Both the position numbers and the translations under genes were made by a program. A stretch of 55,784 nucleotides of DNA, from assembly GCA_016202645.1 (NCBI GenBank), contig JACQOF010000029.1, positions 1 through 55,784 on the forward strand, in the 5' to 3' direction. Origin of the DNA: a bacterium. GTDB taxonomy: Bacteria; Lindowbacteria; 2-12-FULL-62-27. Below, piece after piece: positions 22,004 through 55,784 of the stretch (the stretch's first letter is position 1; every line of letters starts with the position of its first letter). The notes under the pieces were generated by a model that did no database searches, was not told the origin of the DNA, and saw only the letters and a program-made list of their open reading frames with translations.

Positions 22004-22756
22004 ATGGCGCTGATTGCGTTGGCTACGGATTTCGGTGAAGGCCCCTACGTGGGCCAGATGAAGGCTGTGCTCCTGTCCCACGCGCCTCGTGCGCAAATCG
22101 TCGACCTGTTTCACAGCGTGTCGCCCCAGGCAGTCCTTGAAGGCGCGTTTCTTCTGTCGCGGACGTGGGCTTTTTTCCCGCGCGGCACGGTATTCGTCGC
22201 TGTCGTCGATCCGGGCGTGGGCACGCGGCGAAACATTCTGGCGGTCCGCGCTTGGGGCCGGATTTTTCTCGCGCCGGATAACGGCCTGCTTTCCTTCGTC
22301 CCGCCCCGTGCCGTTCTCGACGTCCATCTGGTCGAAACCCGGTCCCTGTTTCTCCCGACGGTCTCATCCACTTTTCACGGCCGGGATATTTTCGCGCCTG
22401 TCGCGGCCGCCCTCTCACGGGGCACGAACGTCCGGCGCCTTGGGCGGAAAGTCCGCGGCTTTCTTCGAGATGGCCGGCTGTTTCCGGAAAGGTCGGGCGG
22501 CCGCCGAACCGGACGGATTGTCCACATCGACCGTTTTGGAAACGCCGTGACCAACCTCCCGTCTACCGGCGCCGTCCGGGGTCTTTGCATCGGCCGCCGC
22601 AGGTACGGCAACATCGTACGCACATACGCGGAAGCTCCTCTCCGCCGTCCTGTGGTCCTGCGGGGCAGTTTCGGGACGTGGGAGATCGCTCTTCGGAACG
22701 GCAGCGCCGCACGCGCGCACGCGCTCCGGGTGGGCATGCCGGTGAGGGAGGCCTGA
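22004..22756 (+). CDS. SAM hydroxide adenosyltransferase family protein (DUF62)
   Basis: 250 residues from the ATG at 22004; six codons more are open upstream but lack support. The N-domain has ALATDFGEGPYVGQMKAVL with the SAM-contacting Asp, VVDPGVGTRR, APDNGLLSFV and FHGRDIFAPVAA; the C-domain has HIDRFGNAVTNLP. These are diagnostic of the fluorinase-like DUF62 enzymes, which hydrolyse S-adenosylmethionine to adenosine and methionine. It is the first gene of a run through moaC and the bio genes, and its stop shares one base with the next ATG (TGATG). Confidence 0.9.
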   Translation: MALIALATDFGEGPYVGQMKAVLLSHAPRAQIVDLFHSVSPQAVLEGAFLLSRTWAFFPRGTVFVAVVDPGVGTRRNILAVRAWGRIFLAPDNGLLSFVPPRAVLDVHLVETRSLFLPTVSSTFHGRDIFAPVAAALSRGTNVRRLGRKVRGFLRDGRLFPERSGGRRTGRIVHIDRFGNAVTNLPSTGAVRGLCIGRRRYGNIVRTYAEAPLRRPVVLRGSFGTWEIALRNGSAARAHALRVGMPVREA

Positions 22757-25647
22757 TGGGCGAAGCCGCGCGGACCCTCAAGCCCGGCGAGTACCTGTTT
22801 TTGCAGGGCGAGCCGGGTCATGAACTCTATTTTCTGAAGTCCGGCGCTCTGGAGGTGGTGTTGTCGCCCAGCCAGTCCAGCCTGACGCCCGAGGAAGTGA
22901 ACCGGTGCGGACAGGTGATCGAGACCTTTGAACAGCCCGGCCAGCTGATCGGAGAAATTTCCCCGATCCTCCATTGCCCGCGAACGGCGTCCGTTCGGGC
23001 CTCGAAGGAAACGACGCTCATCGTCGCCGACATGAAGGCCGGCGCGATGGACAACGCCATCCGGGCGAATCCCGCTCTCGGCATCAAGATCGCGGAGGAA
23101 CTGGCGCGCCGGATCAGCAAGACCAACGACCGCCTGAAAAAACAGGATTTGAAACTTCTCCGGTTCCTGGAGGAAATCCGAAATGCGATGACGGCCTTCT
23201 GGGACTCCGGCGCGGCCGCTCTCCCGTCCGATTCCCCCGAAATCTCGTCGCACCCGTTTGTCGGCCTTGCCAAATTTTGCCGGACCGTCGCGTCCCTCCC
23301 GGCCGACCTGCCCATCAGCCTTGCCCTGCCCTACGCGCAGGCCGGCGCGTTCTTCGCCTACTTCGGAGGGATCTCCTTTCAGACGCCCAAAACGGAAACT
23401 CATGCGGCGAGCGCCGCGGAGGCGCTGGCCAGGATCCAGGGGAAAAAATACGCGACGGGCGAAGTCCTCTGCACGAGCGGCGAGGAAGCCGGAGAACTTT
23501 TTATTCTGCTTCAAGGCCGGCTGAACGTCGTCGTCGGCCGGCGGATCATCCAGACGATTCAGGGCCGGGGGAGCATCGTCGGCGAGATGGCGTTTCTTTT
23601 GAAGACCCGCCGGACCGCGTCCGTGGTGGCCGTCGAGTCGAGCACGGTGCTGGCCGTCCCCTACGATAAGATGGAACCGCTCTTTAAGCGCGTCCCGCCG
23701 CTCCTCGCCCTCATGCTCAGGGAACTCAGCCTCCGACTTCTCCAGGTCGACACGCTCCTTCAGAAATCGACCTGGCGAAACCTGTTTTTCGCGGAAGTCC
23801 TTCCCGCTTTTTCAAAATCCTTCCGGGAAATTTCCGGAAGCCTGCCGGATTCGGTTGCGGAGGAGGTCAAAGACGCGGCTGGCAAGGCCGCCGCGCTGGT
23901 CGAGGAGGCGGCCGGGACGATGTCGAAAGCCGGATCGCAGGATGGCGGAGTCCTGCCGTTCGGTCTCGATGAACTCGTCGGCGGATCGCGCCTGCCTCCT
24001 CCCGTCAACGCCGAGGAACTCAGCGAAATGCCGCCTTCCGCCGGAAGCCACACGGAACATGCCGACTTCGTTCTCTGCGCCTCGGACGGCCGGATGGTGT
24101 TCGGGCCGCCCGGCACAACCCGCGCGCGGTTCGCGCAATACCTGAACCTCGAAGAGCAGACGCTCGTGCCCGCCCGGCTCGTCGGGAAAGCGGGACAGGC
24201 CGGCGCGTACGCGGAAGTGTGCCTGGATGACGAGGGCACGGAAGCTTCGCGGACGGAACTGGTCAAACGCCTTGGCGCGGCGATCGGGGTGGAGTATTAC
24301 CTGTTGCACAAGGACGCCCGCCGGTGGATCTATCAGTTCGAGGGCGGCGGGACGGGGGCGGTCTCAGCGGAAACAATCCCTCATGCCTCTGCCTACCTCG
24401 AAATGCTCTCCAAATTGGACCGCTCCGGCATGTCCCCGCTCGACCGGGCCCGATCCCGCCGTCTCTACCTGGAGGCGGTTGCGGAAATTCTCGAATCCCA
24501 CTGGAGTTCCCCCGGCCAGTTCACGGAACTTTCGCCGGACGAAATGTACCTGCTCCAGTTCGGCGTGACGCCCGGAAATTCAGGCGACACCCTCAAACTC
24601 GACGCGCCGCCCGGCCGGGTGGTTCTCTCTCTCATGGATTTCGCCAAGCAGGCCATCGTTAAACTGGCCGGCGGCGAGGCCGCGCTCATGGGCGGCCCGG
24701 CGTCCGCCAAGGCAAAACTGCCGGAGGTGGAGAAAAAAATTACGGAATCGGTTGAGGCCCGGAAGAAGGCCTATGAGGAACTTCAGATCCCCTACGAAGA
24801 CAGCCGGGAGACGCCTCTTTTGACGCAGATCGAGAAGATGACCCAGCTCCTGCGGCTCAAGGAAAAAGGTGGCAGCCGGTCGGGCGAATCTCTCCGGGAC
24901 CTCGCGGCGGCGGAAAAGGAAACCGAAAAAATGATGGACGAGCGGAACGGGTTCATTTCGCAGAAACTCAAGGGCGACGCCGGCCGGAAGGCCCTTTCGC
25001 AGATCAAGGGAATCGAGGATCAGATCCGTGATGCCTTGCGGGAAAAGATGGACCTGACAGACATCGTCCAGATGCCGGCGGCCGAGGCGGACGCCCAGAA
25101 GGAAAAAAACGCGGCGTCCCTCCAGCCCATCAACCTCCTGAACGGGTTCCGGGACCTCCTGATCGATTTCTTCGAGCGCATTCGGACCACCCTCCGGCCG
25201 GAAAACTACGACGTCATCCCTGTCTACTCCGAGGGCGTCCGGATGTACACCGGCCGGGACATCGGGATCGCGCTCCAGAAAATATCCGACAAGGACAAAC
25301 TCTTCATGGCCGGCCGAGAGATGCCCCCGATCCTCCGCGTCCCGGGCGCCGGTTATGCCGTCTACGACGCCGACTGGAACGTCTTCATCGTGCCGCTCTT
25401 TCTCATGCTCGACCCCTTTCAGATGATGGCCAACGCCGTCGGGGAATGGCGGTGGAGTTTTATTCCGGAAGTGGACCGGAAAAAATTCCAGAAGGCGCTG
25501 AAGGGCGGCGCCAGCATCAAGATGGAGCAGATGGGGATTTATTTCGGCCGCGAATACCGGATGCATCTGGACGGCAAGGAAATCGAGGAAAACACCGCGA
25601 AGTTTCTCAACGAGACTCTGGCGGCGGCGGCGCCGGCCAAGTCATGA
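22756..25647 (+). CDS. Long protein with two cyclic-nucleotide-binding domains and unknown C-terminal half
   Basis: 963 residues. CNBD 1 (about 8-125) has GEYLFLQGEPGHELYFLKSG and the phosphate-binding cassette GEISPILHCPRTASV; CNBD 2 (about 230-345) has GELFILLQGRLNVVVG and GEMAFLLKTRRTASV. Both keep the Glu and Arg expected to hold a cyclic nucleotide. Residues about 430-700 are soluble and unfamiliar; about 640-790 are predicted coiled coil (Glu/Lys-rich); the last ~150 form a globular, aromatic-rich domain (VPGAGYAVYDADWNVFIVP). There are no membrane helices, kinase or HTH motifs. It overlaps moaC (ATGA). It probably senses cAMP or cGMP in the cytoplasm; the output is unknown. Confidence 0.8.
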   Translation: MGEAARTLKPGEYLFLQGEPGHELYFLKSGALEVVLSPSQSSLTPEEVNRCGQVIETFEQPGQLIGEISPILHCPRTASVRASKETTLIVADMKAGAMDNAIRANPALGIKIAEELARRISKTNDRLKKQDLKLLRFLEEIRNAMTAFWDSGAAALPSDSPEISSHPFVGLAKFCRTVASLPADLPISLALPYAQAGAFFAYFGGISFQTPKTETHAASAAEALARIQGKKYATGEVLCTSGEEAGELFILLQGRLNVVVGRRIIQTIQGRGSIVGEMAFLLKTRRTASVVAVESSTVLAVPYDKMEPLFKRVPPLLALMLRELSLRLLQVDTLLQKSTWRNLFFAEVLPAFSKSFREISGSLPDSVAEEVKDAAGKAAALVEEAAGTMSKAGSQDGGVLPFGLDELVGGSRLPPPVNAEELSEMPPSAGSHTEHADFVLCASDGRMVFGPPGTTRARFAQYLNLEEQTLVPARLVGKAGQAGAYAEVCLDDEGTEASRTELVKRLGAAIGVEYYLLHKDARRWIYQFEGGGTGAVSAETIPHASAYLEMLSKLDRSGMSPLDRARSRRLYLEAVAEILESHWSSPGQFTELSPDEMYLLQFGVTPGNSGDTLKLDAPPGRVVLSLMDFAKQAIVKLAGGEAALMGGPASAKAKLPEVEKKITESVEARKKAYEELQIPYEDSRETPLLTQIEKMTQLLRLKEKGGSRSGESLRDLAAAEKETEKMMDERNGFISQKLKGDAGRKALSQIKGIEDQIRDALREKMDLTDIVQMPAAEADAQKEKNAASLQPINLLNGFRDLLIDFFERIRTTLRPENYDVIPVYSEGVRMYTGRDIGIALQKISDKDKLFMAGREMPPILRVPGAGYAVYDADWNVFIVPLFLMLDPFQMMANAVGEWRWSFIPEVDRKKFQKALKGGASIKMEQMGIYFGREYRMHLDGKEIEENTAKFLNETLAAAAPAKS

Positions 25648-47168: not shown

Positions 47169-47765
47169 ATGGCGCTCATGTACTCAACCTCGGTCCCGCT
47201 CGGGTCGGGCGCAATCGATTTTTCACTGCCCGGGACGGATGACCGGATCTATTCGCTGAAGAGTTTCAAAGACGCCGATGTCCTGGTCGTCATTTTTACC
47301 TGCAATCACTGCCCCTACGCCCAGGCCATCTGGCCCCGCACCATCGACCTGCAGGCCCGCATGGCCGGCCGGGTCAGCGCCTCCGGCGCCCCAAGTGCCG
47401 GCGTCTCTGACGCCGGCCGCGGCGTCCGGCTGGTGGGAATCAATCCGAACGACGCCAAAAATTATCCGGATGACCATCCAAAAGAAATGAAGAAAAAAGT
47501 CAAGGAATGGGGAATCAATTTTCCCTACCTCTCCGACGAGTCCCAGGAAACCGCCCGTGCCTACGACGCGCAGTGTACGCCCGACCTCTACGTCTTCGAC
47601 CGCGACCGAAAACTCCGCTATCATGGCCGGCTCGACGACAACTGGCAGGACCCCGGCAAGGTCAAGACCCGTGACTTGGAGGACGCAGTTAACGCGCTCC
47701 TGGCGGGCCGCCAGCCGCCCGAAAAGCAAATGCCGTCGATGGGGTGTTCGATCAAGTGGAAGTGA
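47169..47765 (+). CDS. Thioredoxin-fold redoxin (peroxiredoxin-like, PRX_like1 group), with a palindromic in-frame insertion
   Basis: 198 residues from ATG 47169 (also possible: 47178, or 47133 further upstream). SGAIDFSLPGTDDRIYSLKSF leads into VVIFTCNHCPYAQAIWPRTI, with the CxxC motif CNHC; VGINPNDAKNYPDDHPKEM, TPDLYVFDRDRKLRYHGRLDD and PSMGCSIKWK are typical of this group. It is probably cytoplasmic, reducing peroxides or disulphides. Between RTIDLQARMAG and GVRLVGINPND lie about 17 extra residues (SASGAPSAGVSDAGR) encoded by a hairpin-rich stretch containing GCCGGCGTC/GACGCCGGC (47398-47418). The 3' end overlaps the PAS gene by 22 bp. Confidence 0.85.
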   Translation: MALMYSTSVPLGSGAIDFSLPGTDDRIYSLKSFKDADVLVVIFTCNHCPYAQAIWPRTIDLQARMAGRVSASGAPSAGVSDAGRGVRLVGINPNDAKNYPDDHPKEMKKKVKEWGINFPYLSDESQETARAYDAQCTPDLYVFDRDRKLRYHGRLDDNWQDPGKVKTRDLEDAVNALLAGRQPPEKQMPSMGCSIKWK

Positions 47766-50040: not shown

Positions 50041-50123
50041 AAATGGGGAAATGGGGCCGGGTATTGACATTATTGACATTTCAAATGTCAATAATGTCAA
50101 TACCCGGCCCCATTTCCCCATTT
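50041..50123. repeat. 83-bp perfect palindrome at the 3' end of the GH15 gene
   Basis: The arm 50041-50081 is the exact reverse complement of 50083-50123 with a single-base loop at 50082. Each arm contains doubled words: AAATGGGG twice and TATTGACAT twice. It overlaps the last 27 bp of the glucoamylase gene, whose final codons (KWGNGAGY) and TGA are encoded by the arm. A 41-bp perfect stem would be an extremely strong transcript hairpin. Confidence 0.93.
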
Positions 50124-52097
50124 TGCCTCGTATTGATGGACCGTTTCCACCAGCGTGGCGTGGCTCCACGTCAGAGGGGATACGGACAGCGGCTCGCCCG
50201 TGAGCGGGTGGACCTGCTCGGCCAGAACGCCGCTTTGCAGGGCGCGGACGGCGACCCACGAGAGGATGTCCCGAGGCCACGCCAGGTCCGCGCGCGTTTT
50301 CGCGCGGGCGATCAACCACTGCGCCACCCACATCGTGCAGATGAGCCAGGGATTGCCCGGGACCTTGTCGATGTCGGAACTTTTCCGGTGATAATAATCG
50401 TTGGTGTAGCGCGCGATGCCGCCGACGTCCGTCTTGATCCGCAGATCCTGCTCGATCCGCCGCATCGTCTGCTCGACCTGGGGGTCGTCCGCCGGAAAGG
50501 CGCCGAAGGCGAACAGGCCGAAGAGACTGCTGTCGAGGACAGGGTCGACCTTGAGACGGCCGTCACGGTCGTACGAGACCATCCGCGCGTAACGGCCGAG
50601 TTCCGGCCGGTAGAGAATTTTTTTCAGGGCGGCCCGCATGGTCTCGGCCGCGTCCCCGGCGGCTTTCGAGAGTTCCGCATCTTTGAAGAGGCCGGCGAAA
50701 TACGCGCCCGCGCGCAGGCCGGCCACCACGGCGCTCGTCGTGAAAGTCAGCACGCCGTATCGTTCCTCCCAGAGGTCGTAGGATTCCCGGGGCAGGCCGG
50801 TGGTCTCGTCCCGGTAATGGATCATGAATGAAGTGGCGGGCTTGATGAGCGGCTCATAGAGGTCCCGGACGAACGCAAGATCTTTGCGTCGGGCGTAATG
50901 CTCGCCGAGCGCCCAGAGGACCAGCGCGGTTTCGTCCTCCTGGATGGGCAGGGAGGGCCCGCCGTCCCGCACCCACGGATGCCAGGAACTTCCGAGAGAA
51001 CCGTCGGGATTGAATTTATGGAGCAGATAGCCTTCGTGGTAGAATGTTTTCGGCGGCATGAGCTTCGCGCAAAATTCGAAAAACTTTCTCGTCAGGTCCG
51101 GATACCCGGCCCGGTCCAGGGCGTGGGCCACGAGCGCCCCGTCCCTCGGCCACATGTAGCTGTAGGTGTCCATGTTGAATTCGCGGGAATCGCCGTCGTT
51201 GGCGGCGAGAATGGCGCCGCCGTCGTCGATCTGCGAGCGGATGATGAGAAGGCTTCGGCGATAGAGACTCAGCAGGTCCTCCGGCAAATCTCCCGCCTTA
51301 CGGCCGCGGTCGCCCAGCCAGCCGCGCCAGTGGGCCGCAGTTCGCTCGAAATAAAAATCGGGTCCGTTTTTGAAAATGGTCAGGTTGGTGTTGCGCGCCG
51401 CGAAGTACCCGAGGTCGGCGGCGATCCAGTAATGAAATCGCGCCGTCTGGCCGGGTCCCACCTCGTGCCGGAGGGAAAACGTCGAGTCGACGGAGCCTTG
51501 CGTGATGGGGTTCATCGAAAGCTCCCCGTCTTCGGCGTCCCGCCAGCTTCCCTCCTGCCCGCCGAATTCCTTGACGCCGGTGCAGTACTGGTGGATGGTT
51601 TTGTGCGAAGCGGGATCGGCGCCGGGTGCGGTTCCGTTGATCAGAAAATACCGGCGGCCCTTGTAATGGATGAGGACGTCGTTCACCGGCTCGTAATAGG
51701 CGGTGTCCCCGGTCTTGTCGGCGTAGATGCGGAAGTCGTGATGGAAAAAGAGGCGGACCTCGCGGGCCCGGCCTTCCTCGTTTCGAACGTCGATGCGTTT
51801 GAAATAAATGGTTTCCTGACAATCGACCATGTCCTGGCAGGTGAGATGCAGCTTCAGTCGGGGATGGTACAGGTGAACGGACGTGATCAGGAGACCGTCC
51901 GCGTAGTCGAGCTTCCGCTCCCAGCCGGCGTCATCCACCCACCGGAATTCGCCGTCCACCCAGACGCCGAACCGGCACGGAAAGCCCATGGTCTGATTTT
52001 CCTGACCGACGCGCGGATAATAGAAATCGCGGAGCCGGTACCCGGCGTCGAAATTGACCAGCATCCGGCCGTTGCCGATCGGCAAGTCACGCGGCAT
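50097..52097 (-). CDS. Glycoside hydrolase family 15 (glucoamylase-like)
   Basis: 666 residues, cytoplasmic (no signal peptide). An N-terminal beta-sandwich domain (about 1-260) precedes an (alpha/alpha)6 barrel: MDTYSYMWPRDGALVAHALD, PIQEDETALVLWALGEHY with one catalytic Glu, SYDLWEERYGVLTFTTSAVV, and SGVLAEQVHPLTGEPLSVSPLTWSHA with the second. These match prokaryotic GH15 glucoamylases and trehalases that release glucose from alpha-glucans. The C-terminus ends inside the palindrome at 50041-50123. The zinc-ribbon gene sits 13 bp upstream. Intracellular glycogen or maltodextrin turnover is the likely role. Confidence 0.92.
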   Translation of the reverse strand: MPRDLPIGNGRMLVNFDAGYRLRDFYYPRVGQENQTMGFPCRFGVWVDGEFRWVDDAGWERKLDYADGLLITSVHLYHPRLKLHLTCQDMVDCQETIYFKRIDVRNEEGRAREVRLFFHHDFRIYADKTGDTAYYEPVNDVLIHYKGRRYFLINGTAPGADPASHKTIHQYCTGVKEFGGQEGSWRDAEDGELSMNPITQGSVDSTFSLRHEVGPGQTARFHYWIAADLGYFAARNTNLTIFKNGPDFYFERTAAHWRGWLGDRGRKAGDLPEDLLSLYRRSLLIIRSQIDDGGAILAANDGDSREFNMDTYSYMWPRDGALVAHALDRAGYPDLTRKFFEFCAKLMPPKTFYHEGYLLHKFNPDGSLGSSWHPWVRDGGPSLPIQEDETALVLWALGEHYARRKDLAFVRDLYEPLIKPATSFMIHYRDETTGLPRESYDLWEERYGVLTFTTSAVVAGLRAGAYFAGLFKDAELSKAAGDAAETMRAALKKILYRPELGRYARMVSYDRDGRLKVDPVLDSSLFGLFAFGAFPADDPQVEQTMRRIEQDLRIKTDVGGIARYTNDYYHRKSSDIDKVPGNPWLICTMWVAQWLIARAKTRADLAWPRDILSWVAVRALQSGVLAEQVHPLTGEPLSVSPLTWSHATLVETVHQYEAKWGNGAGY

Positions 52098-52640: not shown

Positions 52641-52859
52641 TCACGCACATTCCCAAGCATGCCTTTGCCATCTATTGAGTTTCCGTTCATCCAAATCCGC
52701 CGCCGTCCGTTTGGAATTCTGTACCGGCCTGTTGTTCCGGTCGCCATAAAAGGCCGGCGCGGTCCACATGTTGACCGGCCCGGCCGGGCCCACGACCCGC
52801 TCCCGCGCCGTCTCAGGGGTCCGACCGACAAGATTCGGAATCGTGTTGACCCTCACCAT
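52641..52859 (-). CDS. Possible small protein with PASTA-like start
   Basis: 72 residues from an ATG (52859) preceded by a good GGAGGGAT site 8 nt upstream. NTIPNLVGRTPETARERV resembles the opening of a PASTA repeat, but the rest (YGDRNNRPVQNSKRTA, RWQRHAWECA) does not. It overlaps the 3' end of the cyclase gene by 47 bp, which is long for this window. It may be a small or decaying gene. Confidence 0.3.
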   Translation of the reverse strand: MVRVNTIPNLVGRTPETARERVVGPAGPVNMWTAPAFYGDRNNRPVQNSKRTAADLDERKLNRWQRHAWECA

Positions 52860-54177
52860 CGTTGAAATCCCTCCACGGCGAGCGCAGCACATACGTCGTG
52901 AGCGGCTCCTCCACGCCCTTTACCCGCAGGCCATCGCGCCGCTTAATCCACTCGGGCGGAGGTACGGGATCAAGACGGCGAAAGGTCGAGGATCCGACGT
53001 GGACGGCATCCACGGGACAGGTGGACTCGAAACGCTGGGCCACGTTCACGGCCGAACCCACGCAGGTGTAATCGCGGCGTGACGACATCGCGCCGATGTC
53101 GCCGAGGATCACGACGCCGGTGTTGACCCCGATGCGGATGCGGAAAGCCTCCGGGTTAGACACGCGCAGTTCAGCCATCCGCGCCTGCATTTCCAGCGCG
53201 GCGGAGACCGCGGCATTCGCGCCCGCGTCGCCGGCGGTGGAGGCCTCGAATATCGCCATGATCGCGTCCCCGATGAACTTGTCGATCATGCCGCCGTTGC
53301 GGGTCACGATCGGCGCCATCTCCTCGAAGTAGCGGTTGAGCCGCCGCACGAGTTCGTCCGCGGACGTGACCTCGGTCATGGGCGTGAACCCCACGACGTC
53401 CGAAAAGAGGATGGTAAGCTCCTGATTCCGGGCCGAACTCTCGGCGCCGCCCGCCGCTCGGCGGTGCGCCGCCTCCCAGGCTGACTTCGGAACGTAGTGG
53501 ATGAGTTCGCGCTTCGCCTGCATGCCTTCGACGAGGCGATTGAAGACGGCGGCAAGATCGCCGACCTCGTCCTTTGTTCGAAGGTTTACCCGCACGTCGA
53601 GATCGTCGGACTCGAGACGCTTCATGCCGAGCGCGAGCGTCGCGAGCGGAACGGTGATGCCCCGGGCGACGAGGATCGAGAAGGAGACGGCGACCAGAAT
53701 CGCAACCGCCCCGAGGGTGACCGCGTGGCCGATGAGACTGCGGCGCGCGGCGTGAAGCCGCGTGGCGTCGAAGGCGACCTCGATCCGCCCGATCTCGCGG
53801 GGAGTTTCCCCGGGGGACAAGATCGTGATGGGGCGGACGACGCGGTGGGCCTCGGGCGGAACGCTCCCCCACTCGCTTCCCAGATCGAGCGGTTGGCCGT
53901 CGTCGCCCAGGACCGCGATCGAGCGAAGGTCCCCGTACACCAGGGCGATCTCGCGCAGGACCTCGCGCGTGTTGTCCGGGTCGATCACCTCGTTGGCGAG
54001 GAGCGTCTCGAGGAGCACGGGAGAGAGCGTGGTCGCGAGCGCCTCCACGGATTCCCGGTACCGCGTCTCGATCGCGGCGCGTTCCCTTTGATAGTTCACG
54101 AAGAGGGTGAGCGCCGTCCCCTCAAGGATCCCGACCACGAGGAGGGCCGCGACCTTGTGCCAGAGCCGGATTCTCAT
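52813..54177 (-). CDS. Membrane-bound class III adenylate cyclase with HAMP domain
   Basis: 454 residues. Two membrane helices (about 8-27 and 150-170) flank a ~120-residue periplasmic sensor region. The HAMP linker (172-225) includes LATLALGMKRLESDDLDV, and the catalytic domain (250-430) has ILFSDVVGFTPMTEV (metal Asp260), MIDKFIGDAIMAIF (Lys299, Asp304) and DYTCVGSAVNVAQRFE (Asp369, Asn378, Arg382). The Lys/Asp pair favours ATP over GTP. cAMP production controlled by a periplasmic signal is the expected activity. The ATG overlaps the stop of the PhnD-like gene, so the two are co-expressed. This part of the window is more GC-rich than the rest. Confidence 0.9.
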   Translation of the reverse strand: MRIRLWHKVAALLVVGILEGTALTLFVNYQRERAAIETRYRESVEALATTLSPVLLETLLANEVIDPDNTREVLREIALVYGDLRSIAVLGDDGQPLDLGSEWGSVPPEAHRVVRPITILSPGETPREIGRIEVAFDATRLHAARRSLIGHAVTLGAVAILVAVSFSILVARGITVPLATLALGMKRLESDDLDVRVNLRTKDEVGDLAAVFNRLVEGMQAKRELIHYVPKSAWEAAHRRAAGGAESSARNQELTILFSDVVGFTPMTEVTSADELVRRLNRYFEEMAPIVTRNGGMIDKFIGDAIMAIFEASTAGDAGANAAVSAALEMQARMAELRVSNPEAFRIRIGVNTGVVILGDIGAMSSRRDYTCVGSAVNVAQRFESTCPVDAVHVGSSTFRRLDPVPPPEWIKRRDGLRVKGVEEPLTTYVLRSPWRDFNDGEGQHDSESCRSDP

Positions 54178-54961
54178 TCCGGAAGCCGCCCGTGCCCCGA
54201 GAGCGTGGCCGCAACCCGGCGCACCGGGGCGAACTCCCTGTCCGAGACCGCGCCGAAAGGATGCGGCGACCCGGTGCGCGCGTCCGGCGCGAGGAGCGCG
54301 GCGCGGATTCGCTCCGCCAGGGCGGGCTCGCGTGCGAGGAAGGATCGGGAGAAGGCGACGCACCAGTTCGGAAGGAGCGGCGTCTCGGCGAGGATGCGCA
54401 CGCGCGCGCGTTCCCCCGCCGGGACGTGGTCGGCATACGCCTGCGGGTAGGTGAAACCGGCGTCGTACCGCCCCTCCTTCAGGTGGATCAGGACGTTGAC
54501 GTGCGACCCGACGCCCGTGAAAGAGGCGAAGTCGTTGAACGGATTGATGCCGGCATCGAGGCACATCGCGAGCGGATAGAGGTATCCCGAGGCGGAGTGG
54601 AGATCCACATACGCCACACGGCGGCCACGAAGATCCGCAAGCGTTCGGATATCGGGAGCGGCGGCGACGACGAGACCGCGGTACGCGGTCGAATCATCCT
54701 GAATCGGCCCCGCGACAGGCTCGACCCCGGCCTCCTGCCGGGCGCGGACGTAGTCGAAGGGCGCGAGGTCGACGATGTCGTACGCGTTCTCGCGCACACG
54801 CGCATGGAAAACCTGAGGATCTCCCAGAACCCGGATTCGGACGCGGAGGTATGGCTCGATGCGCCCCCGGCCGGATTCGACGAGATCGGGCCGGGCGAAG
54901 ACCCGCAGCCGACGCCCGCGACGGCGGCCAGGACACAGATGAAAATCGGAAGGCGTTGCAA
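54174..54961 (-). pseudogene. PhnD-like substrate-binding lipoprotein with apparent frameshift near its N-terminus
   Basis: The downstream frame encodes a PhnD/phosphonate-type periplasmic binding protein (ENAYDIVDLAPFDYVRAR, LADLRGRRVAYVDLHSASGY, HVNVLIHLKEGRYDAGFTYP). An N-terminal lipoprotein signal (IFICVLAAVAGVGC) lies in a different frame, starting at TTG 54961. The frames meet at about 54885-54900, where C/G runs (TTCGCCCGGCCCGATC) could hide an indel. The usual first strand of PhnD is mostly missing. It overlaps the cyclase by ATGA. With no ABC permease or ATPase nearby, it more likely serves as a sensor for the cyclase than as a transporter part. Sequencing error is as likely as true decay. 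Confidence 0.6.
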
Positions 54962-55037: not shown

Positions 55038-55784
55038 TCAGCGCACAATCGCAAGCTTGTCCACGAGTTTGTCTCCGCCGGATTCGAGGATGTAGATGTA
55101 CACGCCCGAGCCGAGTCTCTGTCCGTGTTTGTTGGCGCAGTCCCACTCGATTTTTTGCGCCGCGGCGTCCGCGGCCAGTTCCTTCACCAGCCTCCCGCCC
55201 ACGTCGAATATTTTGAGTGAGACGACTCCGGTTGCGGTCGGGCCCCATTTGAAGGTCATCATCTGCGTGGTTCCGTCCGGGCCGGGGTTCGGATACACGA
55301 ATGCATTTTCCTTCGACAGCGGCGGCGCAAGAAACGGCGCGACGATTTCGGGCGCGCCGATGGCTAACGTCAGGGAGAAAGGGAGAGAGGGAGAAAGGGA
55401 GAGAGGCAGGGACTCGACCTTGCGCAAATTCACGGGGCCGGCAGGGCCGCCGATCAAATACGCCTCGTACCCAGTCGGCAAATTCGACACATTGTCCCAC
55501 GTGACCGCGACGGGTCCAGCAAGGTCGCTTGCCACGAGAACGTCCCACGACCGGCCCGCCGCTTTCGCGTCGGTGGCGGCCATGGGCTCCGAGAATGACG
55601 CGGCCAGCCATTCTTGGGATTTTGGATTTTGGATTTCGGATTTGGGAATTGAAACCGATAAAGAAGGGCGAACCGCCAGAGTCACCGCACCGCCGGCCGC
55701 GGACGGCGGCTCGTACACAGCCGCAAGCGCCGCCGATTTCGCGTTCGGCATCACCCCCACGTAATTCTGCGCGTCCGTCTTGCC
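55038..55784 (-). CDS. C-terminal part of a large secreted protein with FlgD-like sorting domain (5' end outside window)
   Basis: 249 residues visible; the frame is open to the window edge. Near the end are VYPNPGPDG and VVSLKIFDVGGRLVKELAAD, then WDCANKHGQRLGSGVYIYIL and a KLAIVR finish. This is the FlgD-Ig-like C-terminal domain common to surface proteins of diderms, with features shared with type IX-type C-terminal tails. Upstream, a fibronectin-like segment (VAVTWDNVSNLPTGYEAYLI) is interrupted by two low-complexity stretches encoded by short-word arrays (55371-55412 and 55612-55650). It is presumably exported and anchored or released at the cell surface. The N-terminal function is outside the window. 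Confidence 0.75.
   Translation of the reverse strand, partial: GKTDAQNYVGVMPNAKSAALAAVYEPPSAAGGAVTLAVRPSLSVSIPKSEIQNPKSQEWLAASFSEPMAATDAKAAGRSWDVLVASDLAGPVAVTWDNVSNLPTGYEAYLIGGPAGPVNLRKVESLPLSLSPSLPFSLTLAIGAPEIVAPFLAPPLSKENAFVYPNPGPDGTTQMMTFKWGPTATGVVSLKIFDVGGRLVKELAADAAAQKIEWDCANKHGQRLGSGVYIYILESGGDKLVDKLAIVR
55371..55412. repeat. Purine-rich short-word array inside a coding region
   Basis: AGGGAGAAAGGGAGAGAGGGA-like tandem copies (unit about 8 nt) lie in frame within the secreted protein and give the peptide LPLSLSPSLPFSLTL. It is the same kind of degenerate array as those in intergenic regions, here tolerated in coding sequence. Confidence 0.65.
55612..55650. repeat. GGATTTT-word array inside a coding region
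   Basis: Four to five copies of a TTTGGATT-like word (GGGATTTT, GGATTTT, GGATTTC, GGATTTG) lie in frame in the same secreted protein, encoding the peptide IPKSEIQNPKSQ. The local sequence is far more AT-rich than its surroundings. Confidence 0.65.

Follow-up and report, generated by a model that had tools for sequence, protein, structure and literature searches.

Does a bacterial membrane adenylate cyclase receive its signal from a binding protein encoded by the gene in front of it? This question is raised by two overlapping genes on the minus strand of the window, by which we mean the whole 55,784-nucleotide stretch of contig JACQOF010000029.1 analysed here. One encodes a PhnD-like solute-binding protein (SBP) and the next a HAMP-containing adenylate cyclase. 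A preliminary description of the locus had proposed that the pair turns the binding of a ligand outside the membrane into cAMP. Conserved adjacency of the two genes and the absence of the PhnE permease from the three genomes of the home phylum leave that reading well supported, though unproven; in the window itself, however, the SBP gene is broken in frame. The home phylum was sampled through three genomes of Candidatus Lindowbacteria: G000, which contains the window, G001 (MFPR01000007.1) and G002 (JAHFCY010000023.1).

The cyclase and the broken frame beside it

The features of the locus, in the order in which they are transcribed, are as follows.

54848..54961, minus strand: lipoprotein-type leader of the PhnD-like gene, with a TTG start at 54961 and the sequence MQRLPIFICVLAAVAGVGC followed by GSS, in a frame other than that of the binding domain
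54847..54848, minus strand: deletion junction, about 106 bp fewer than in G001 (DNA alignment with G001)
54174..54847, minus strand: PhnD-like binding-domain body (PF12974), 92% identical to G001 in amino acids
53466..54847, minus strand: high-identity block (about 93% nucleotide identity to G001) comprising the binding-domain body and the cyclase sensor, transmembrane, HAMP and linker regions
54174..54177, minus strand: ATGA overlap of the PhnD-like stop with the cyclase start, sequence GAATGAGAA
52813..54177, minus strand: membrane adenylate cyclase gene, 454 amino acids plus stop (ORF and Pfam)
53758..54090, minus strand: predicted periplasmic sensor domain, about residues 30-140 of the cyclase, with a transmembrane helix on either side (AF2 model)
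53518..53673, minus strand: HAMP domain, residues 169-220 (Pfam, 44.4 bits, above cut-off)
52882..53433, minus strand: class III catalytic domain, residues 249-432 (Pfam Guanylate_cyc, 101.9 bits, above cut-off)

The domain content and catalytic motifs of the cyclase can be read directly from its sequence, and they bear out the earlier account of a HAMP membrane cyclase with a small periplasmic domain. Two transmembrane segments are followed by the HAMP domain and by a class III catalytic domain whose motifs are intact: FSD(260)VVGFT, DK(300)FIGD(304)AIM and RRDYTCVGSAVNVAQRFE. The residue set of class III adenylate cyclases is found in the protein (D260, K300 and D304, with the D(YT), N and R motifs), and we take these residues to serve in metal binding, base specification and stabilisation of the transition state. 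The solved protein closest to the catalytic domain is CyaB (3r5g, 1.3e-26). The periplasmic domain gave no match in a Pfam search. In an AF2 model of the sensor half (pLDDT 74) its elements follow the order alpha-alpha-beta-beta-beta, and the best single-domain structural row was 4onx_B (Z 9.1, rmsd 2.9, 96 residues aligned). VIA rows for the same model reached Z 7-10 to sCache/PDC domains, HAMP domains and LuxQ, a range that the tool itself describes as common, and Foldseek returned a single match below 1e-3, to an integrative model of WalK-YycH. The modelled domain may be said to resemble sCache domains, without a claim to membership of any fold family.

The overlap with the PhnD-like gene is as previously noted, the ATG of the cyclase sharing bases with the TGA of the PhnD-like frame. 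The lipoprotein gene that had been drawn from 54961 to 54174 survives only in part: its PF12974 body is clear, at 142.4 bits against a cut-off of 27, but it is not a single ORF, leader and domain lying in separate frames. The leader frame (TTG 54961, MQRLPIFICVLAAVAGVGCGSS...) terminates at 54488, and between 54961 and 54488 it has no Pfam match. The binding-domain frame extends for 287 codons from stop to stop, with no ATG, GTG or TTG before 54797, and its match begins at position 30 of the profile. The approximately 106 bp absent at the junction correspond to the strand and helix with which the binding domain begins; since 106 is not a multiple of three, the frame shifts at 54848/54847. In G001 (295 amino acids, 159 bits to PF12974) and in G002 (158 bits) the gene is intact with its signal sequence in frame, and the G001 counterpart of the leader, MTKTFFLCVLAAACIGC followed by GPS, reads straight into the binding domain. 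An intact exported PhnD-like protein with an in-frame signal sequence is therefore a property of the relatives and is missing from the window. An AF2 model of the SBP built from three sequences was poor (pLDDT 46.7).

With its SBP frame broken, the cyclase may lack a partner in this organism, or the assembly may be faulty. The first of these possibilities is that the SBP gene is a recent pseudogene, so that only the cyclase works here and the pair functions only in relatives; we regard this as slightly less than an even prospect. It would account for the frameshifting deletion, for the loss of profile positions 1-29 and for the missing start codon, whereas the remaining body has a dN of 0.039 and a dS of 0.161 against G001 and no internal stop, and in this low ratio it resembles a gene that selection maintained until recently. 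The genome is, moreover, a draft of 146 contigs, which makes an assembly error as likely as a pseudogene; real mutation and assembly error are equally compatible with the assembled sequence, which cannot tell them apart.

Comparison with G001 also revealed a second discontinuity. Homology between the window and G001 at this point is confined to the PhnD-like and cyclase genes, the flanking genes being different, and elsewhere in the same 20 kb the larger coding matches show 65-80% identity to G001. Within the cyclase, identity falls sharply where the catalytic domain begins, protein windows there being 55-79% identical. Differences were counted at 59 of 462 third codon positions before the break and at 87 of 200 after it, and a break at cyclase codon 238-242 gave a log-likelihood gain of 35.8, compared with at most 8.5 in 300 permutations. 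The block of some 93% identity and the break at its end suggest that the sensing half of the cyclase has had a recent history in common with the SBP body, and that the catalytic half has not. On these sequence comparisons, it looks as if SBP and sensing half had been exchanged as one cassette.

Since the high-identity block begins exactly at the deletion junction, a chimeric assembly, incorporating DNA of a related organism from the same sample, could explain both block and deletion, and G001 is indeed metagenome-derived. We nevertheless consider such a chimera less likely than not: the identity of the block, at about 93%, is far from 100%, its right edge is in frame, and GC3 is similar on either side, at 0.82-0.87, although DNA from a third organism would be compatible with all three observations.

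Several other features were seen in the window. A near-perfect long palindrome of about 2 x 36 bp (50046-50126) lies across the stop of a GH15 gene, and short palindromes similar to it occur at many sites in G002. A dispersed repeat of about 55-70 bp (~47355-47425) has more than 20 copies in G001, at 88-98% identity. At 55038-55784 is the end of a secreted-type protein with a FlgD_ig/Por_Secre_tail-like C-terminus, which matches many places in G001 and G002.

Conservation of the pair and the partners of PhnD-like genes

The survey of adjacency for which the preliminary description had called found PhnD-like and HAMP-cyclase genes side by side in nine genomes from two phyla. Systems with SBP-controlled receptors characteristically keep the genes for SBP and receptor side by side, and this arrangement is present in all three genomes of Candidatus Lindowbacteria (3/3) and in six of the seven genomes of the second phylum (6/7), the exception, G290, being only 78% complete. 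Two of the second-phylum genomes, G258 and G121, which are of other families, were picked up from the cyclase side, the gene immediately upstream of a HAMP cyclase being PhnD-like in each. Among the second-phylum pairs the PhnD proteins of different genera are 41-55% identical. An ATGA or GTGA overlap of 4 nt is present in eight of the nine pairs; in the ninth, that of G258, the genes are about 25 bp apart. The pair in G002 has diverged widely, its SBP sharing only about 25% identity with the G001 protein and its cyclase 34% with that of the window, with the gene order retained and a GTGA overlap. The cyclases of the second phylum have a larger periplasmic part, in which sCache_3_2 scored 29.2 and 30.8 bits against a cut-off of 28.4.

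Additional SBP genes accompany some of these loci. Directly upstream of the pair in G002 is a lipoprotein-like gene of the SBP_bac_8/SBP_bac_1 type (L022:2065-3369, minus strand), so that two different SBPs precede one cyclase; no permease was seen among the ORFs inspected there. Tandem arrays of three to five PhnD-like SBP genes occur in the second phylum, at L324 (G291:C118), L327 (G290:C335) and L329 (G121:C138).

Transporter genes were not seen near the pair, in agreement with the first account, when the neighbouring ORFs of the window and of its relatives were inspected by eye and in part scanned with Pfam. Nor was an ABC permease or ATPase, named in advance as the finding that would tell against the sensor reading, recognised directly upstream among the relatives' ORFs inspected. 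PhnE (TIGR01097) was found in none of the three home-phylum genomes, while the control was positive in 13 of 14 well-known genomes, and phosphonate transport by a PhnCDE system is therefore an unsupported reading in this phylum.

Each of the three Lindowbacteria genomes has exactly two copies of PF12974, and all six genes precede genes for HAMP signalling proteins, three of them adenylate cyclases and three of GGDEF type (the last of these, in G000, being counted although the contig ends inside the gene). In the second pair, kept in 3/3 genomes, the gene that follows the PhnD-like SBP encodes a HAMP protein with two TM segments (L024, G000:C104:1-3000; L113, G001:C43; L116, G002:C60). This HAMP partner has a C-terminal GGDEF domain in G001 and G002 and runs off the contig in G000, and the pair is likely to constitute an SBP-controlled diguanylate cyclase.

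To place these arrangements in a wider setting, PhnD was surveyed in 290 genomes, which gave 85 matches. With the three home-phylum cyclase pairs treated separately, 82 remained; 60 were fetched with their flanks, yielding 56 usable ORFs (54 of them outside the home phylum), and the 22 weaker matches were left out. Judged by domain or motif, the neighbours of the 56 were two-TM histidine kinases (11), multi-TM kinases (3), GGDEF proteins (4, of which two are from the home phylum) and ABC ATPases (14); the 24 others or undetermined include failures of the longest-ORF heuristic used to call neighbouring genes. None was an adenylate cyclase, and the resulting 0 of 54 loci examined outside the home phylum counts against the sensor reading. 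From the other direction, a PhnD gene, the sole SBP family looked for, lies directly upstream of four of 143 distinct cyclase ORFs, those of G001, G002, G258 and G121, two of them in the home phylum; the pair in the window is a fifth case, which went unflagged owing to its broken frame. Taken together, these counts indicate that PhnD genes are commonly found beside HAMP receptors and that pairing with a cyclase is a rare variant of this arrangement, but one that recurs. A tree of 63 PhnD proteins was built by a quick search, with proteins longer than 460 amino acids left out; in it the six cyclase-linked members require three changes, at least two of them forced by well-supported branches, so that coupling to a cyclase probably arose more than once. 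The survey also turned up a PhnD-like SBP followed by a 277-residue two-TM protein with a weak sCache_3_2 match and no recognised output domain (L077:1026-2832, G189:C168).

Small sCache-type sensor domains are able to bind a ligand themselves, and for this reason the cyclase might not need an SBP at all. That the SBP belongs to transport, as an orphan component or by sharing a permease encoded elsewhere, and is merely co-transcribed with an independent and self-sensing cyclase is nonetheless improbable: PF12974 is classically a family of ABC transporters, an ABC ATPase (by motif) stands beside 14 of the 56 loci, and the cyclase owns a sensor domain of sCache-like appearance, but against these points stand the absence of PhnE, the linkage of every home-phylum PF12974 gene to a HAMP protein, and a 4-nt overlap retained across two phyla.

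A proposed sensor and its relation to known systems

The pocket of the SBP offers some guidance as to the ligand. According to passages of PMC5908839, the pockets of AioX and PhnD have in common a Tyr, a Ser-x-Ser and a His. Mapped by motif, Tyr127, Ser156, Ser158 and His187 of the G001 SBP would be these shared residues; they are invariant in five aligned rows, and in the window the S-A-S and H are encoded by codons starting at 54596, 54590 and 54503 on the minus strand. A further pocket tyrosine of AioX, Y88, seemingly corresponds to Pro82 in G001 and the window. Among solved proteins PtxB, which binds phosphite, comes closest (4.8e-16), and this, with the shared pocket residues, makes an oxyanion or phosphonate-like ligand a reasonable guess for SBPs of the window/G001 type. 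The SBPs of the second phylum have no Ser-x-Ser motif, and so their ligand would be a different one. Arsenite sensing is unsupported: the pocket cysteine of AioX is given as Cys106 in the part of PMC5908839 that describes it, and the G001 SBP is free of cysteine from residue 18 to residue 127, the stretch in which a counterpart of Cys106 would be expected to lie.

Because the pair is kept in two phyla without a transporter, its two proteins probably form one sensor, and on this genomic evidence we think there is a good probability that the PhnD-family SBP controls the neighbouring HAMP adenylate cyclase as a two-protein device in the membrane. The PhnD-family lipoprotein would catch a small periplasmic ligand, perhaps phosphonate-, phosphite- or other oxyanion-like in the window/G001 type, and would then dock on the cyclase at its small periplasmic domain; the signal would travel through the second transmembrane helix and the HAMP domain to the catalytic dimer and alter the synthesis of cAMP. 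In this scheme ligand binding, docking, the direction of control and cAMP as the product are what we infer. To our knowledge, the stimulus has yet to be identified for the majority of membrane adenylate cyclases in bacteria, and one with a dedicated, separable ligand-catching partner would provide a route to finding it.

A receptor for the cAMP had also been suggested, in the form of a dual-CNBD protein encoded at 22756. Such a protein does exist (22585-25647, with two cNMP_binding stretches), but its proposed role as the dedicated receptor was not upheld: there are 24 cNMP_binding matches in the genome, at least three further proteins there are strongly related to the pair's cyclase, and 30 kb separate the two genes.

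LuxP-LuxQ of Vibrio combines a ribose-type SBP with a hybrid kinase receptor that has a small periplasmic domain. It thus follows the same plan as the pair described here, from which it differs in the type of SBP and in its kinase output; the structural match of LuxQ to the cyclase sensor model (Z 8.2, rmsd 3.0, 104 residues aligned) falls within the range of common arrangements.

By analogy, the pair would most likely work in the manner of AioX-AioS and other SBP-controlled receptors, with cAMP as the output. In AioX-AioS, as set out in passages of PMC5908839, the loaded SBP docks on the periplasmic domain of the receptor and changes its output through HAMP. AioX-AioS-AioR, ArxX and ArrX, which sense arsenic oxyanions, likewise place a PhnD-like SBP beside a membrane receptor, for sensing and not for transport, but AioX-AioS-AioR signals through a histidine kinase and response regulator, whereas the Lindowbacteria pair has a class III adenylate cyclase as its output (same passages of PMC5908839). 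CuaD-CuaS, from a three-component system of Ruminiclostridium, similarly has a second SBP devoted to signalling beside a two-TM HAMP receptor, and contact between the two was demonstrated by two-hybrid analysis; it differs in having a sugar-type SBP and a histidine kinase output (PMC10384115, in the sections on this system).

In SBP-controlled receptors generally, a ligand-loaded SBP stimulates a two-TM receptor encoded alongside it, as is proposed here (passages of PMC9602780 and PMC11113362). The SBP-driven receptors listed in those passages are chemoreceptors, sensor kinases, diguanylate cyclases or phosphodiesterases, and Ser/Thr or protein kinases; adenylate cyclases appear there as a receptor type, but outside the SBP-driven list. 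A search of the open-licence PMC literature, in the portions it returned, produced no report of a bacterial adenylate cyclase under SBP control, although one may be in print elsewhere. We hold evenly balanced the wider proposition that SBPs drive bacterial adenylate cyclases as a separate and repeatedly evolved class of cAMP receptor for extracellular ligands; that the PhnD family of Lindowbacteria has moved wholly from transport to second-messenger sensing, one member serving cAMP and one c-di-GMP; and that SBP and sensor half have been swapped between genera as a cassette with its breakpoint at the HAMP-catalytic border. If SBP control of the cyclase is correct, cAMP would join the outputs of SBP-controlled receptors, of which the passages of PMC9602780 and PMC11113362 name others. 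A parallel for control of a class III cyclase by an SBP-like fold may be seen in the receptor adenylate cyclases of Trypanosoma, for which such control by a Venus-flytrap ectodomain has been proposed, and which differ in being fused, single proteins with a single transmembrane segment, in a eukaryote (passages of PMC6027212).
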